NCBI GenBank assembly: GCA_903929355.1
Contig: CAIYUN010000063.1
Span: 1 to 53,220 of the forward strand
Length of the DNA: 53,220 nucleotides
Source: an uncultured Opitutaceae bacterium
GTDB taxonomy: Bacteria > Verrucomicrobiota > Verrucomicrobiia > Opitutales > Opitutaceae
Direction of reading: 5' to 3'
Shown: piece by piece, positions 43,980 to 48,141 of the stretch
Layout: every line of letters begins with the position of its first letter
Position numbering within the stretch: position 1 is the first letter of the stretch
Position numbers and translations under genes: made by a program
The notes under the pieces: model-generated
What the model was told of the DNA's origin: nothing
What the model saw: the letters and a program-made list of their open reading frames with translations, nothing else
The model's database searches: none

Positions 43980-44186
43980 TCATCCCCGGACCACCAGCCT
44001 GAGGGGGATGATCCGGCCAAAATATTCCGGACTGAGATCGGGGCGTGGGCTGAGCACGAGCAGATCGTGCTCCGGCGCGCCTCCGGGTTTGGTGGGCGCG
44101 CCGCGCGGGATCGCGGTCGCCGGCGTGGGCGGGGTTCGTCCGCCGGGCGTGCGGCCCGGTGGGTGGAAGAGGTCGGTGGTTTTCAT
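43980..44186 (-). CDS. Small Pro-rich ORF downstream of the attenuator
   Basis: 68 codons from ATG 44186 (MKTTDLFHPPGRTPGGRTPP), ending LSPEYFGRIIPLRLVVRG. Codon use looks like coding for this genome (mostly G/C at third positions). The ATG lies 52 bases after the terminator T-tract. I recognise no family: it is not an acetolactate synthase subunit, IlvC, IlvD or LeuA start. It could be a genuine small protein controlled by the attenuator, the degraded front of a lost ilv gene, or chance. It stops 164 bases before the protease start. Confidence 0.4.
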   Translation of the reverse strand: MKTTDLFHPPGRTPGGRTPPTPATAIPRGAPTKPGGAPEHDLLVLSPRPDLSPEYFGRIIPLRLVVRG

Positions 44187-44237: not shown

Positions 44238-44271
44238 AAAAAGCCCCTCCGGTGACTGGCACCGGAGGGGC
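44238..44271 (-). terminator. Attenuator terminator hairpin
   Basis: On the minus strand GCCCCTCCGGTG and CACCGGAGGGGC form a perfect 12-bp stem around the loop CCAGT, followed by five T. It starts 16 bases after the leader-peptide stop codon and would end transcription before the downstream ORF. Confidence 0.92.
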
Positions 44272-44287
44272 AAATTCTTGGTTGGAA

Positions 44288-44392
44288 TCAGCACCCCTCC
44301 GACGCACAGCTGGCGACGGACACGACGGAGACGACCACCACGGAAATGTGGTGGCAGCTCGAGGCGGACGACGAGGTGCGGGTGGGCTGCAT
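44288..44392 (-). CDS. Valine-rich leader peptide
   Basis: 34 codons from ATG 44392 to TGA at 44288. Codons 16-26 read I-S-V-V-V-V-S-V-V-S-V: seven Val in nine positions with both GTG and GTC codons. The rest is Ser/Thr/Cys-rich. It resembles the IvbL/IlvL leader peptides of ilv operons, whose translation speed sets attenuation. No Shine-Dalgarno is visible, as for most genes here. A TTGACG at 44433-44428 could be a -35 element, but no good -10 follows. Function as a peptide is not expected. Confidence 0.7.
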   Translation of the reverse strand: MQPTRTSSSASSCHHISVVVVSVVSVASCASEGC

Positions 44393-44769
44393 GATTGCGG
44401 GCGAAGTCAGGCACGGATGGCCGCCACCGTCAAGCCGACAATTCCGGCGGATGGATGCCCCGTCACCGCTGATTCACGAAGGGAAGAAGATAGAGGACAC
44501 AAGGGCTTGGTGTTCGCCTTTGACCTAGCCAAACAAAAACCTTTAACCACTTATGCACACTAATCTGCACCTATCCGATCCTCGGAATCAGTGTTCATCA
44601 GTGTCCATCAGTGGTTCAAACTCGATCGTTCTGAAAGTTTTCACCCCGAGTTTCCCAATGGTATTTGGTCTCTCATCATCATTGTCTTGTCTCCCCACAT
44701 GAATCGGCGCTGGGGGAGTTCCAGGGGGCCGGGAACATTGGCGCTTGAGTCGCGCCGCCGGCCGGTGGC
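44393..44769. other. Spacer upstream of the attenuator (minus) and GT2 fusion (plus)
   Basis: It contains a CAGTGTTCATCAGTGTCCAT repeat (44590-44615) also found at 14745-14775. Candidate promoter sequence for the minus-strand leader would lie at 44400-44560 (TTAAAGGTTTTTGTTTGG is AT-rich). No gene is supported. Confidence 0.45.
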
Positions 44770-47700
44770 ATGGTGCGGGCGATGCCGGAACTGCTGTCCA
44801 TCTGCATTCCCACCTACAATCGCGCCACTTACCTGGCGGACCTGTTGGGCTCCCTGGAGCGGGCGCTGGCCGGCGCGGGCCCGGTCGCAGGGGACATCCG
44901 GATTCACATTTCAGACAACGCCTCGGTCGACCGCACCGCCGGGGTGGTGGCGGAATTTGCGGCGCGGTTGCCGCTGAGCTACCACCGCAATGAGACGAAT
45001 ATCGGCGGTGACCACAATTTCGAGCAGCTGATCCGCACCACGCCGGGCGAGTATTTCTGGCTGATCGGCGACGACGATCTGTTGGTGGAGGATGTGTTGC
45101 CCAAGCTCATGGCGGTGTTGCGCGCCCAGTCGCCCGGCCTGGTCGTGCTGGATGACCTGTCCGACGCACCCGGGGCCGAGGCGGCGGCCCGGGCATCGGC
45201 CCGGCCGCCGCAGATCGCGACCCTGTCGGGCCAGCTGGCTGAGACGAAGCAGTTGCTCACCGCCGTCACCACTGAAAAGGCCGCCGGCGACCAGGCCATC
45301 GCCCAGCTCCAGGCCCGGCTGGCGGAGGCCACCAAGCTGGCCGATGAACGCCAGGCCGGGCTCGCCCGGCTGGCCGAGCTGGCCAAGGCCGGTGACGCCC
45401 TGGCCGCGGACAAAGCGGCGCTCGCGCAGAAGGCCGACAGCCTGGAAAAGGCCAATGCCGATCTCACCGCGAAAAACAGCCAGCTGATCGAGACCGCGCG
45501 GAAAAGCACCGCCGAGTTCCAGACCCAGACCCAGCAACTGCAGGAGAGGCTCGCCGCGGCGCAGGCCGGGGACGCCAACCGCACCAAGCTCACGGCCCAG
45601 CTGGCCGCGGCGCAGGACGCCATCACCCAAAGCCGGGCGGACAACGAAAAGCTCGCCGCCGCCCAACAAGCCGCGACGACCGAGCGCGACCAATTGCAGG
45701 CGCGGCTGGCCGAGACCACCAAGCTCGCCGCTGACAGCCAGGCGGGGCTGGCCCGGCTCGCCGAACTGACCAAGACCAGCGAAGCCCTCACGGCAGACAA
45801 AGCCGCGCTCGCGCAACAACTCGCCGCCGCCAACGAGAAGCTGGCGGCCGCCGCCCCGGCCGCCGGCGCGGCGGCGGCGGAGCTCGCCCGGCTGCGCGGT
45901 GCCGCCCAGTCCGCGCAGGACGCGCAGGCGGCCGCGCGGCTCGCCGCCGACCAGTCCGTCGCTGAACTCGCCGCAGCCAAGCGGTCGCTGGACGACCTCA
46001 CCCGGCAGAACGCCACCCTCACCAAGGACGCCGCCACCGCGCGTGACGCGCTGGCGGCGCGGGAGCAGCAACTGGCGGCACCTTCCACCGCGCAACTGGC
46101 TGCGGAACATGCGGCCCAGACGCTGCGGGACCAGCTGGCCGCCGCCACCGCCAAACTGGCCGACCTCGCCGCCGCCGCCACGGCCAAGGACACCCAGCTG
46201 GCCCAGATCAAGACCGACCGCGACCGCCTCGCCGCGCTCTCCACCGACACCTCCGCGCAGGACGAGCTCACCCGCCAGGTCGCCGTCGCCCAGCAGGCCG
46301 CCGCGGCGGCCCGCGATGCCGCCAGGCGGGCGCAGACGGAAAAAGACCAGGCCGCCGCCGCGCTCGCCGCCCAGACCACCACCATGCAGGCCACGGAGAC
46401 CCAGTTGGCCCAGCTCAAGGCCGACAACCAGCGCCTGGCCGCCGAAAACCAAAAACTGGCCGCCACCGGCACCACCGATGCCGACAAACTCAAGGCGGAC
46501 CTGGCCGCCGCCCAGCAGGCGGCCGCGTCCGCCGGCGACGCGGCCAGACGGGCGCAGACGGAAAAGGACCAGACGGCCGCCGCGCTGGCCGCCCAGGCCA
46601 CCGCCGCCCAGGCCACGGAGGCCCAGCTGGCGCAGCTCAAGGCCGACAACCAGCGCCTGGCCGCCGAGAATCAAAAACTCGCCGCCACCAGTGCCACCGG
46701 CGCCGACGCCGCCCAGCTGAAGGCCGACCTGGCCGATGCCAACCGGGGGCTTGCAGCCAGCCAGAAAAGTGTCGCGGAGCTGACCGGCAAGAACGACTCG
46801 CTTGAAAAAGACCTGGAGGTTTCCAAGCAGACGGCCGCCGCCGCGCTGGCCGCGCAGACGGCGGCGGCGCAGGCCGTCCCCGATGCCGCCGCCGCCCGCA
46901 TGGAGCGGCAGACCCTCCAGGACCAGTTGCATGCCCTGGAGGCCCAGGCGGAGGAGGACCGGCAGGCCTCCGCGCGGGAGATCACCGCGCTCGCCACCCA
47001 GCTGAGCCGCACGCGGGACACGAACAAGGCGCTCACCGACGCCAATCGGGCGCTCCTCGATTCGGGCAACGGCGCTGATGCGGTGCCCAAGGCCGACGCC
47101 GACAAACTCGCCGCCGCCAACGCCAAACTCGCGCAGGAGCGCGACGGGCTTCGCGCCCAGGCGGCCCAGCTCGCCAGCCGCGCCGACGACAGCGACCACC
47201 AGCTGGCCGCGCTCAAGGCCCAGCTGGCCGAGTCCGGCAAGGCGGTGGAACAGCACAGCGCCAGCGTGGCCGAACTGACCGCCCTCAACGAGAAACTGGC
47301 GGCCGAAAAGACCGCGGTTGCGCAGCAGCTCGAGGACGCCAGGGCTGACGCCGCCCGGCTGGCGCAAACCAGCACCGACCTGGCCGACGCCCGCCGGCAG
47401 GCGGCCGCGGCCCAGGCTGCGGCCGACCAGAACCGCACCGAGCTCGCGGCGCTTAAGACGAAACTCGCCGAATCCAACCAGGCGGTGGAACAGCACAGCG
47501 CCAGCGTCGCCGAGCTCACCAGCGCCAATGAGAAGACCGCCGCCGAACGCGACCAGCTCAAGAGCCAGCTGGCCGCGTTCACCACCCAGCTCGACGACCT
47601 CAAGGCCGCCAACGGCCGCCTCGCCGAAGCGGACGCCGCGCGCCAGCAGGCCGAACAGCGCGCGGCCGCCCTGGCCGACACCGCCACCCGCCTTGCCGCC

Positions 47701-48141
47701 ACGCAGCAGGAACTCGCCGGACTCAAGGTCGCCAACGCCCGTCTCAGCGACCAGGCGCAGGCGCTCGACCGCGACCGCACCTCGCGGGTCACCGAGTTGC
47801 AGCAGGACAACGCCGCGCTCAACGCCCGGCTGCGTCAGGCGCAGGGGGCGCTCGACCAGATCGCCACCGCCACGCGGATGATCAACTCCGCCACCGGTTC
47901 GGCTCCCGGCGCGACCGGCCTGCTGCCGTCCTCGGTGGGGGAGGCCTCACCCGCGCCGGCAACCCCCGTGGGCACCGGGGCGCCGCGTTTTCACATTGTG
48001 GCCGAGGGGGAGTCGCTCTCGCGCATCAGCCTGCAATATTATGGCACCATGAGCCGGTGGCAGAACATCTACGACGCCAACCGCGAGGTGCTGAAGGGCG
48101 AGGACTCCCTCCATCCCGGGCAGAGGCTGGTGATCCCGTGA
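44770..48141 (+). CDS. GT2 glycosyltransferase domain / giant coiled coil / LysM fusion
   Basis: 1,123 residues. Residues 7-128 are the front half of a GT-A family 2 glycosyltransferase: LLSICIPTYNRATYLADLL, HISDNASVDRT, and IGGDHNFEQL through YFWLIGDDDLLVED with the metal DDD (101-103). The acceptor half that should follow is missing. From residue 150 to about 1,040 there is a continuous Ala/Gln/Lys/Leu coiled coil, with a 74-residue tandem duplication (46277-46720) and an 80-residue one (VEQHSASVAELT twice). The last 52 residues are a LysM domain (FHIVAEGESLSRISLQYYGT, then WQNIYDANREVL). No signal peptide precedes the LysM part, so export is puzzling. It may be a deletion fusion of two genes. 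Confidence 0.75.
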   Translation: MVRAMPELLSICIPTYNRATYLADLLGSLERALAGAGPVAGDIRIHISDNASVDRTAGVVAEFAARLPLSYHRNETNIGGDHNFEQLIRTTPGEYFWLIGDDDLLVEDVLPKLMAVLRAQSPGLVVLDDLSDAPGAEAAARASARPPQIATLSGQLAETKQLLTAVTTEKAAGDQAIAQLQARLAEATKLADERQAGLARLAELAKAGDALAADKAALAQKADSLEKANADLTAKNSQLIETARKSTAEFQTQTQQLQERLAAAQAGDANRTKLTAQLAAAQDAITQSRADNEKLAAAQQAATTERDQLQARLAETTKLAADSQAGLARLAELTKTSEALTADKAALAQQLAAANEKLAAAAPAAGAAAAELARLRGAAQSAQDAQAAARLAADQSVAELAAAKRSLDDLTRQNATLTKDAATARDALAAREQQLAAPSTAQLAAEHAAQTLRDQLAAATAKLADLAAAATAKDTQLAQIKTDRDRLAALSTDTSAQDELTRQVAVAQQAAAAARDAARRAQTEKDQAAAALAAQTTTMQATETQLAQLKADNQRLAAENQKLAATGTTDADKLKADLAAAQQAAASAGDAARRAQTEKDQTAAALAAQATAAQATEAQLAQLKADNQRLAAENQKLAATSATGADAAQLKADLADANRGLAASQKSVAELTGKNDSLEKDLEVSKQTAAAALAAQTAAAQAVPDAAAARMERQTLQDQLHALEAQAEEDRQASAREITALATQLSRTRDTNKALTDANRALLDSGNGADAVPKADADKLAAANAKLAQERDGLRAQAAQLASRADDSDHQLAALKAQLAESGKAVEQHSASVAELTALNEKLAAEKTAVAQQLEDARADAARLAQTSTDLADARRQAAAAQAAADQNRTELAALKTKLAESNQAVEQHSASVAELTSANEKTAAERDQLKSQLAAFTTQLDDLKAANGRLAEADAARQQAEQRAAALADTATRLAATQQELAGLKVANARLSDQAQALDRDRTSRVTELQQDNAALNARLRQAQGALDQIATATRMINSATGSAPGATGLLPSSVGEASPAPATPVGTGAPRFHIVAEGESLSRISLQYYGTMSRWQNIYDANREVLKGEDSLHPGQRLVIP
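46277..46720 (+). repeat. Tandem duplication of 222 bases in the coiled coil
   Basis: Two adjacent copies (period 222 bases, 74 residues) share KADNQRLAAENQKLAAT and RRAQTEKDQ. They are diverged mainly at third codon positions. Confidence 0.75.

Follow-up and report, generated by a model that had tools for sequence, protein, structure and literature searches.

A ribosome-mediated transcription attenuator carried on the minus strand of a 53,220 nt stretch of DNA from an uncultured Opitutaceae bacterium (the window) was most probably inherited from a valine-regulated ilvBN operon encoding a second isozyme of acetolactate synthase, of which ilvB and most of ilvN have been lost and the remnant has been kept as a small protein. 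Amino-acid attenuators are usually read as marking the operon for synthesis of the amino acid in question; here the attenuator has apparently survived its operon and been kept, together with the small protein, over approximately two dozen genera. The intact operon, its gutted form and one halfway state appear within a single bacterial family, which makes it possible to test directly a case in which a gene arose through internal deletion behind a pre-existing regulator, and shows that an 'orphan' attenuator can flag an overlooked small protein.

All parts of the switch lie on the minus strand. A leader-peptide ORF of 34 residues (MQPTRTSSSASSCHHISVVVVSVVSVASCASEGC; 44288..44392), ending in a TGA stop, is read directly from 44392 to 44288, and valine occupies seven of the nine leader positions 18–26 (VVVVSVVSV; 44315..44341), which are the presumed sensing codons. 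An intrinsic terminator of 12 bp with a 5 nt loop (GCCCCTCCGGTG-CCAGT-CACCGGAGGGGC; 44243..44271) begins 16 nt past the leader TGA and is directly followed by a T-tract (TTTTT; 44238..44242), and within the 3' end of the leader ORF lies an antiterminator arm (CGGAGGGGT; 44293..44301), whose partner in the predicted fold is the 5' arm of the terminator. The first-pass annotation of this DNA had described each of these elements, and direct reading confirms the leader and the terminator as the predicted fold does the competing antiterminator. It had confined the feature to 44238–44392; the feature is indeed there, but starts further upstream, at a conserved TTGAC box at 44433. This −35-like box (TTGACG; 44428..44433), a consensus match and putative promoter element, is located 41 nt upstream of the leader start, and a candidate −10-like hexamer (CTGACT; 44405..44410) lies 17 nt past it. 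In 88 of 100 related loci, TTGAC is found 33–52 nt upstream of the leader start, with a modal spacing of 41 nt (41–44 nt from TTGAC to ATG in all nine of the first aligned copies), and in these 88 loci positions 23–28 after TTGAC, the −10-like region, read C 72, T 72, T 62, T 44, T 38 and T 71%. With transcription from the TTGAC box, the 5' end of the transcript would fall some 5–6 nt ahead of the leader ATG.

In the predicted fold, the antiterminator comprises nine pairs and an inner 5 bp stem, with an energy of −21.1 kcal/mol compared with −22.9 kcal/mol for the terminator. Folding of the 255 nt minus-strand region, a check suggested at the outset, gave a z-score of −3.98, and none of 200 shuffles was equally stable; across the 100 loci, the antiterminator has a mean z-score of −1.7 and beats more than 95% of shuffles in just 46. 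A scan for at least seven Val codons in nine close to a stop, followed by a terminator within 75 nt, returned this site alone in the window and no site in 60 first-order resamples. Among the hallmarks of attenuation, a leader with cognate codons and a terminator soon after the leader stop are present, and an antiterminator that excludes the terminator and would be covered by a ribosome that has reached the stop codon is found by sequence and prediction; a branched-chain amino-acid synthesis gene under control of the switch is absent from the window. Searched against Rfam, the stretch between 43000 and 45000 gave five matches, all under the gathering score, and 20 related loci gave a single tRNA and nothing else. 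Upstream of the attenuator, a 93 bp sequence (44536–44628) has an 89% identical copy elsewhere in the genome, on a different contig (L008), and is perhaps a dispersed intergenic repeat.

The arrangement of these parts suggests how the switch may operate. When Val-tRNA is ample, the ribosome would reach the leader stop and mask the GGAGGGG arm, allowing the terminator to form. When valine is short, the ribosome would stall in the Val run, GGAGGGG would pair with CCCCUCC and transcription would read through, with the result that the small protein would presumably be made. The pairing and the geometry of the switch are apparent in the sequence, from which we infer the response to valine.

The switch is widely conserved. 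Within the genus of the window, a DNA search matched five of the six genomes, its own included, one of these matches, in G002, being short and unrelated, and a protein search located the small ORF in all six. A covariance model built on the 3' part of nine aligned copies, in all of which the terminator stem is present and is the most conserved part of the alignment, finds matches in 141 of the 252 genomes from the family Opitutaceae at an E-value of 0.05, covering 35 of 49 genera; the conservation that the first-pass annotation had proposed looking for is therefore present. An order-wide draw of 372 genomes gave 45 with a match at 1e-6, of which three do not belong to the family; two of these three, from two other families of the order, have a Val/Leu-rich leader ahead of ilvB, and the third (L212) was judged to be spurious. 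An exact-pattern scan of named genomes returned 32 contigs, all from Verrucomicrobiota and assigned to Opitutaceae, Opitutae or Opitutia, Opitutus or Cephaloticoccus, or only at the phylum or class level.

A leader ORF with 4–11 Val codons could be called in all 100 model-matched loci examined, using a caller that favours ORFs rich in Val, Ile and Leu; this set omits ten of the 110 loci classed below (L085, L088, L094 and L162, which are cut, as well as L047, L099, L116 and L175–L177). Valine is the commonest residue of the 100 leaders, with 723 occurrences, and their sequences are highly variable except for the Val-rich part and the end. Indeed, 58 leaders terminate in APRG or a close variant of it, with no more than one residue beyond, an ending that results from translation of the antiterminator arm GCGAGGG. 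By eye, leaders ahead of ilvB tend towards an unbroken Leu/Val run (LALVVVVVV) and those ahead of the small ORF towards AHxSVVVxSVVSV. On a leader tree of 154 columns, in which the 75 rows labelled as small ORF include the ilvN-only locus, the two labels are clustered, with six changes compared with a shuffled mean of 22.3 (none of 500 shuffles as low); such a tree would fit one origin or several alike and cannot tell them apart.

The gene downstream of the attenuator was used to class 110 loci from 106 genomes; approximately a quarter of the 141 matched genomes lie outside this set, which was chosen from the score list blind to the downstream gene, and one genome (G004), with no model match and a leader cut by a contig end, was included through its small ORF. 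The attenuator precedes ilvB in 26 loci from 16 genera, 24 of them with a recognizable ilvN, and these ilvB genes are the copy in G020 and 25 others sharing 66–85% identity with it. The ilv-type attenuation geometry proposed initially is supported. In the place of ilvB, 75 loci from 21 genera harbour a small ORF of 60–111 residues with an HD-F/L/M-L (or ND) core, and three further loci hold a diverged version, for a total of 78 over 24 genera. The search for the small ORF required an intact ORF of 45–125 residues bearing the motif; among the loci lacking ilvB it missed the three diverged ones and those remaining in the set, namely one with ilvN without ilvB, one with a transporter gene and four cut by contig ends. 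The ilvN locus (L169), seen in a single genome, represents the halfway state. The transporter locus (L176; G009, contig C1 near 5679948–5680070) is matched by the model as a second site (E = 6.8e-8); there a terminator and a leader rich in Val stand ahead of a 409-residue MFS-type transporter gene, with neither ilvB nor the small ORF. Both an ilvB copy and a small-ORF copy are present in G033, G038 (where the small ORF is of the diverged kind) and G125, which points to duplication or transfer at least in these three genomes. The same leader, terminator and start-codon placement occur ahead of ilvB in 26 of the 110 loci and recur in two further families of the order, so that the ilvBN arrangement appears to be the older one.

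In the window, as had been noted at first, no ilv gene stands behind the switch, and a small ORF of 68 residues is found there (43980..44186, minus strand). Of the two outcomes envisaged by the first-pass annotation, loss of the operon or control by valine of something new, both seem to hold, with ilvB behind 26 and the small ORF behind 75 of the 110 attenuators, the part played by valine being a presumption. Its choice of a downstream protease pair as the controlled genes did not stand: tblastn with the HtrA-like protein of the window finds no match in the loci (7.7–14 kb) of the five other genomes of the genus, whereas the small ORF is present in six of six, and the HtrA-like protease was rejected as the target. 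The pair itself consists of two tandem HtrA-like ORFs (43815–41039, minus strand), the first with a Trypsin_2 match and PDZ domains and the second with PDZ and no trypsin match. On the plus strand, an ORF of 1123 residues (44770–48141) weakly resembles a glycosyltransferase at its start, a long SMC-type coiled coil in its middle and LysM at its end, with all matches below cut-off.

The content of acetolactate synthases differs between the two kinds of genome. Each of the seven genomes checked in which ilvB stands behind the attenuator has two acetolactate synthases above the family cut-off, while none of six genomes without it (five with the small ORF only and one with ilvN only) has a second, each having one. 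The attenuated enzyme is accordingly a second isozyme, missing where just the small ORF is found. Five of the six genomes of the window's genus have one acetolactate synthase, the sixth, which is 70% complete, giving weaker matches with none over the cut-off; inspection by eye of 700 nt upstream of the five full genes showed no Val-rich leader on this main ilvB.

The small ORF reads as the remnant of an internal deletion extending from near the start of ilvB to near the end of ilvN, with a junction that is not placeable: the start of IlvB would have been fused in frame to the IlvN tail, with loss of ilvB and the greater part of ilvN. The IlvN part of this reading is well supported by profile comparisons. 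An HMM of 23 IlvN tails matches the window ORF with 17.9 bits (E = 4.4e-6), and both this HMM and hhalign place the match to the IlvN C-terminal tail at the core HDLLVLSPRPDLSPEYF (44019..44069, minus strand). At 10 bits or more the model recovers six of the 75 small ORFs, all from the window's genus and hence not independent, compared with none of 1500 shuffles and none of 2997 control ORF ends; with the threshold lowered to 8 bits the numbers are seven of 75, one of 1500 and two of 2997, one of these two control ends being a small-ORF piece and the other an ORF containing a leader. Alignment of the window's genus plus a second genus to the IlvN tail using hhalign gave an E-value of 1.5e-6 and a probability of 90. 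The IlvB part is moderately supported: an HMM of 25 IlvB N-termini matches three of 75 small ORFs at 8 bits or more (none of 1500 shuffles and none of 2997 controls), all aligned from IlvB residue 1 or 3 and belonging to two genera other than that of the window (L040, L041 and L127), the N-terminus of the window ORF scores −1.9 bits and hhalign of the window's genus plus the second genus gave an E-value of 0.001 and a probability of 21.5. The likeness to IlvB is a start-anchored stretch of approximately 30 residues in some relatives only. The small ORF has no Pfam or NCBIfam match at an E-value of 0.1, and its 68 residues include a match to the IlvN C-terminal tail and no ACT domain; by Pfam, the thiamine diphosphate enzyme domains of IlvB are absent. 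A KHNFLV stretch internal to IlvB was rejected as the source of the core, with none of the 75 small ORFs matching at 5 bits or more, and IlvN is for this reason preferred as its origin.

The small ORF encodes a protein kept by selection, which is probably disordered. The dN/dS ratio is below 1 in all 54 pairs of relatives, none of which is from the window's genus (0.13–0.67), and in all 15 pairs from that genus (0.23–0.93), although these alignments are gappy (43–66 codons) and pN is high (0.26–0.47), and the pairs are not mutually independent. Pooled pairs above 60% identity have a pS of 0.396 and a pN of 0.181. Given this selection on the protein, the ORF is likely to be translated. Among 17 aligned copies only Met1, one His, one Asp and one Leu are invariant, and AlphaFold run on these copies produced a low-confidence model (mean pLDDT of 66.6, pTM of 0.18) in which DSSP assigned no secondary-structure element. 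The codons of the HDxLV core (44019–44069 in the window, and in relatives) show a tendency to form a hairpin, CACGA...TCGTG, beyond that expected from synonymous choice in 26 of 73 cases at p ≤ 0.1 (−13.3 kcal/mol in the window). This hairpin was considered as the conserved item in place of the peptide and rejected; some folding excess exists, which is not universal.

Other explanations can be weighed against these observations. Were the attenuator and the ORF functionless leftovers of ilvBN caught before erosion, one would expect an ORF such as this one, which is short, variable and proline-rich, belongs to no Pfam or NCBIfam family, yields a low-confidence model devoid of DSSP elements and reaches a dN/dS of 0.93 in one pair from the window's genus. 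Such decay is nevertheless quite improbable, given an ORF intact in 75 loci from 21 genera (78 from 24 with the diverged ones), no broken copy among the 84 loci without ilvB (four cut by contig ends), dN/dS values below 1 in 54 of 54 and 15 of 15 pairs, and a terminator, leader and promoter-like boxes that are likewise kept. Trans action of the leader transcript or the leader peptide has been reported for the trp leaders of rhizobia, and a terminated leader RNA or its peptide could similarly be the point of the present locus, with the ORF merely riding along. That the terminator stem is the best-conserved part of nine aligned copies and that the HD-core stretch folds in excess (26 of 73) would agree with this, but the selection observed on the ORF concerns its protein, and the leaders diverge widely apart from their Val-rich part and end, making it a very unlikely alternative.

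The small ORF might instead serve as a second leader or as a translational coupler for the next gene. A LysN-like aminotransferase, assigned by sequence (PDB entry 2egy and relatives), comes next in 13 of the 110 loci, after a core-motif ORF in 12 and after a diverged ORF in one, with an ATGA overlap with the small ORF in several, and in one genome (G125, locus L116) a gene resembling malate synthase A (TIGR01344, 508.6 bits, under the cut-off of 594.5) behind the attenuator overlaps the small-ORF stop in the same manner. Set against this, in 97 of the 110 loci the stretch searched, which is cut in some, contains no such aminotransferase, and in the window a gap of 165 nt separates the small ORF from the next gene, for which the other five loci of the genus give no match; a role of this kind is unlikely. 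Next-gene calls for 44 loci are naive ORF calls that are unreliable on strand, the window itself having been miscalled. Finally, spurious ORFs are abundant in the window, and a Val-rich stretch might by accident have come to lie beside an ordinary terminator, but the empty outcome of 60 resamples and the matches in 141 of 252 genomes leave such a coincidence with a negligible probability, conservation refuting it.

The preferred reading remains that of a valine attenuator retained together with an ilvBN remnant. A further step would be that the microprotein, disordered, made from both ends of the deleted acetolactate synthase operon and switched on at valine shortage, uses its IlvN-tail core HDxLV to act in trans on the housekeeping acetolactate synthase that remains. 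We consider this a speculative and rather doubtful extension; if true, a regulator would have been made from the debris of the enzyme that it once accompanied.

The closest known system is the ivbL-ilvBN attenuator of E. coli, which combines a Val-rich leader, a terminator and a competing antiterminator. The switch in the window shares these three elements, and in relatives the attenuator precedes ilvB and a short ilvN of the E. coli type, the best NCBIfam match of which is NF006036 (103.8 bits, under the cut-off of 128). In contrast to ivbL-ilvBN, an ORF of 60–111 residues replaces ilvB and ilvN in the window and in 75 of the 110 loci, and the leader starts approximately 12 nt past the −10-like box with no obvious ribosome site. 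The small ORF resembles IlvN in 17 residues near the IlvN C-terminus (HDxLxVxxRPDLxxExF) and differs from it in having no detected ACT domain. The LysN-like aminotransferases that follow in 13 loci do not stand behind the attenuator of the window. Among the titles and opening parts of abstracts searched, none dealt with this attenuator in Verrucomicrobia or Opitutaceae. In Actinobacteria, the ilvB leaders as described in passages of one report are short ORFs with runs of Ile, Val and Leu codons and a terminator that the ORFs overlap, their mode of control being called unclear (PMC1262725); the short ORF with a branched-chain codon run and the terminator are common to both, whereas a gutted version such as the present one does not feature in those passages (PMC1262725). 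As no branched-chain operon gene stands next to it in the window, the switch is not a full member of the class of branched-chain operon attenuators, but judging from its sequence it is likely to work mechanistically as the ivbL-ilvBN attenuator does.
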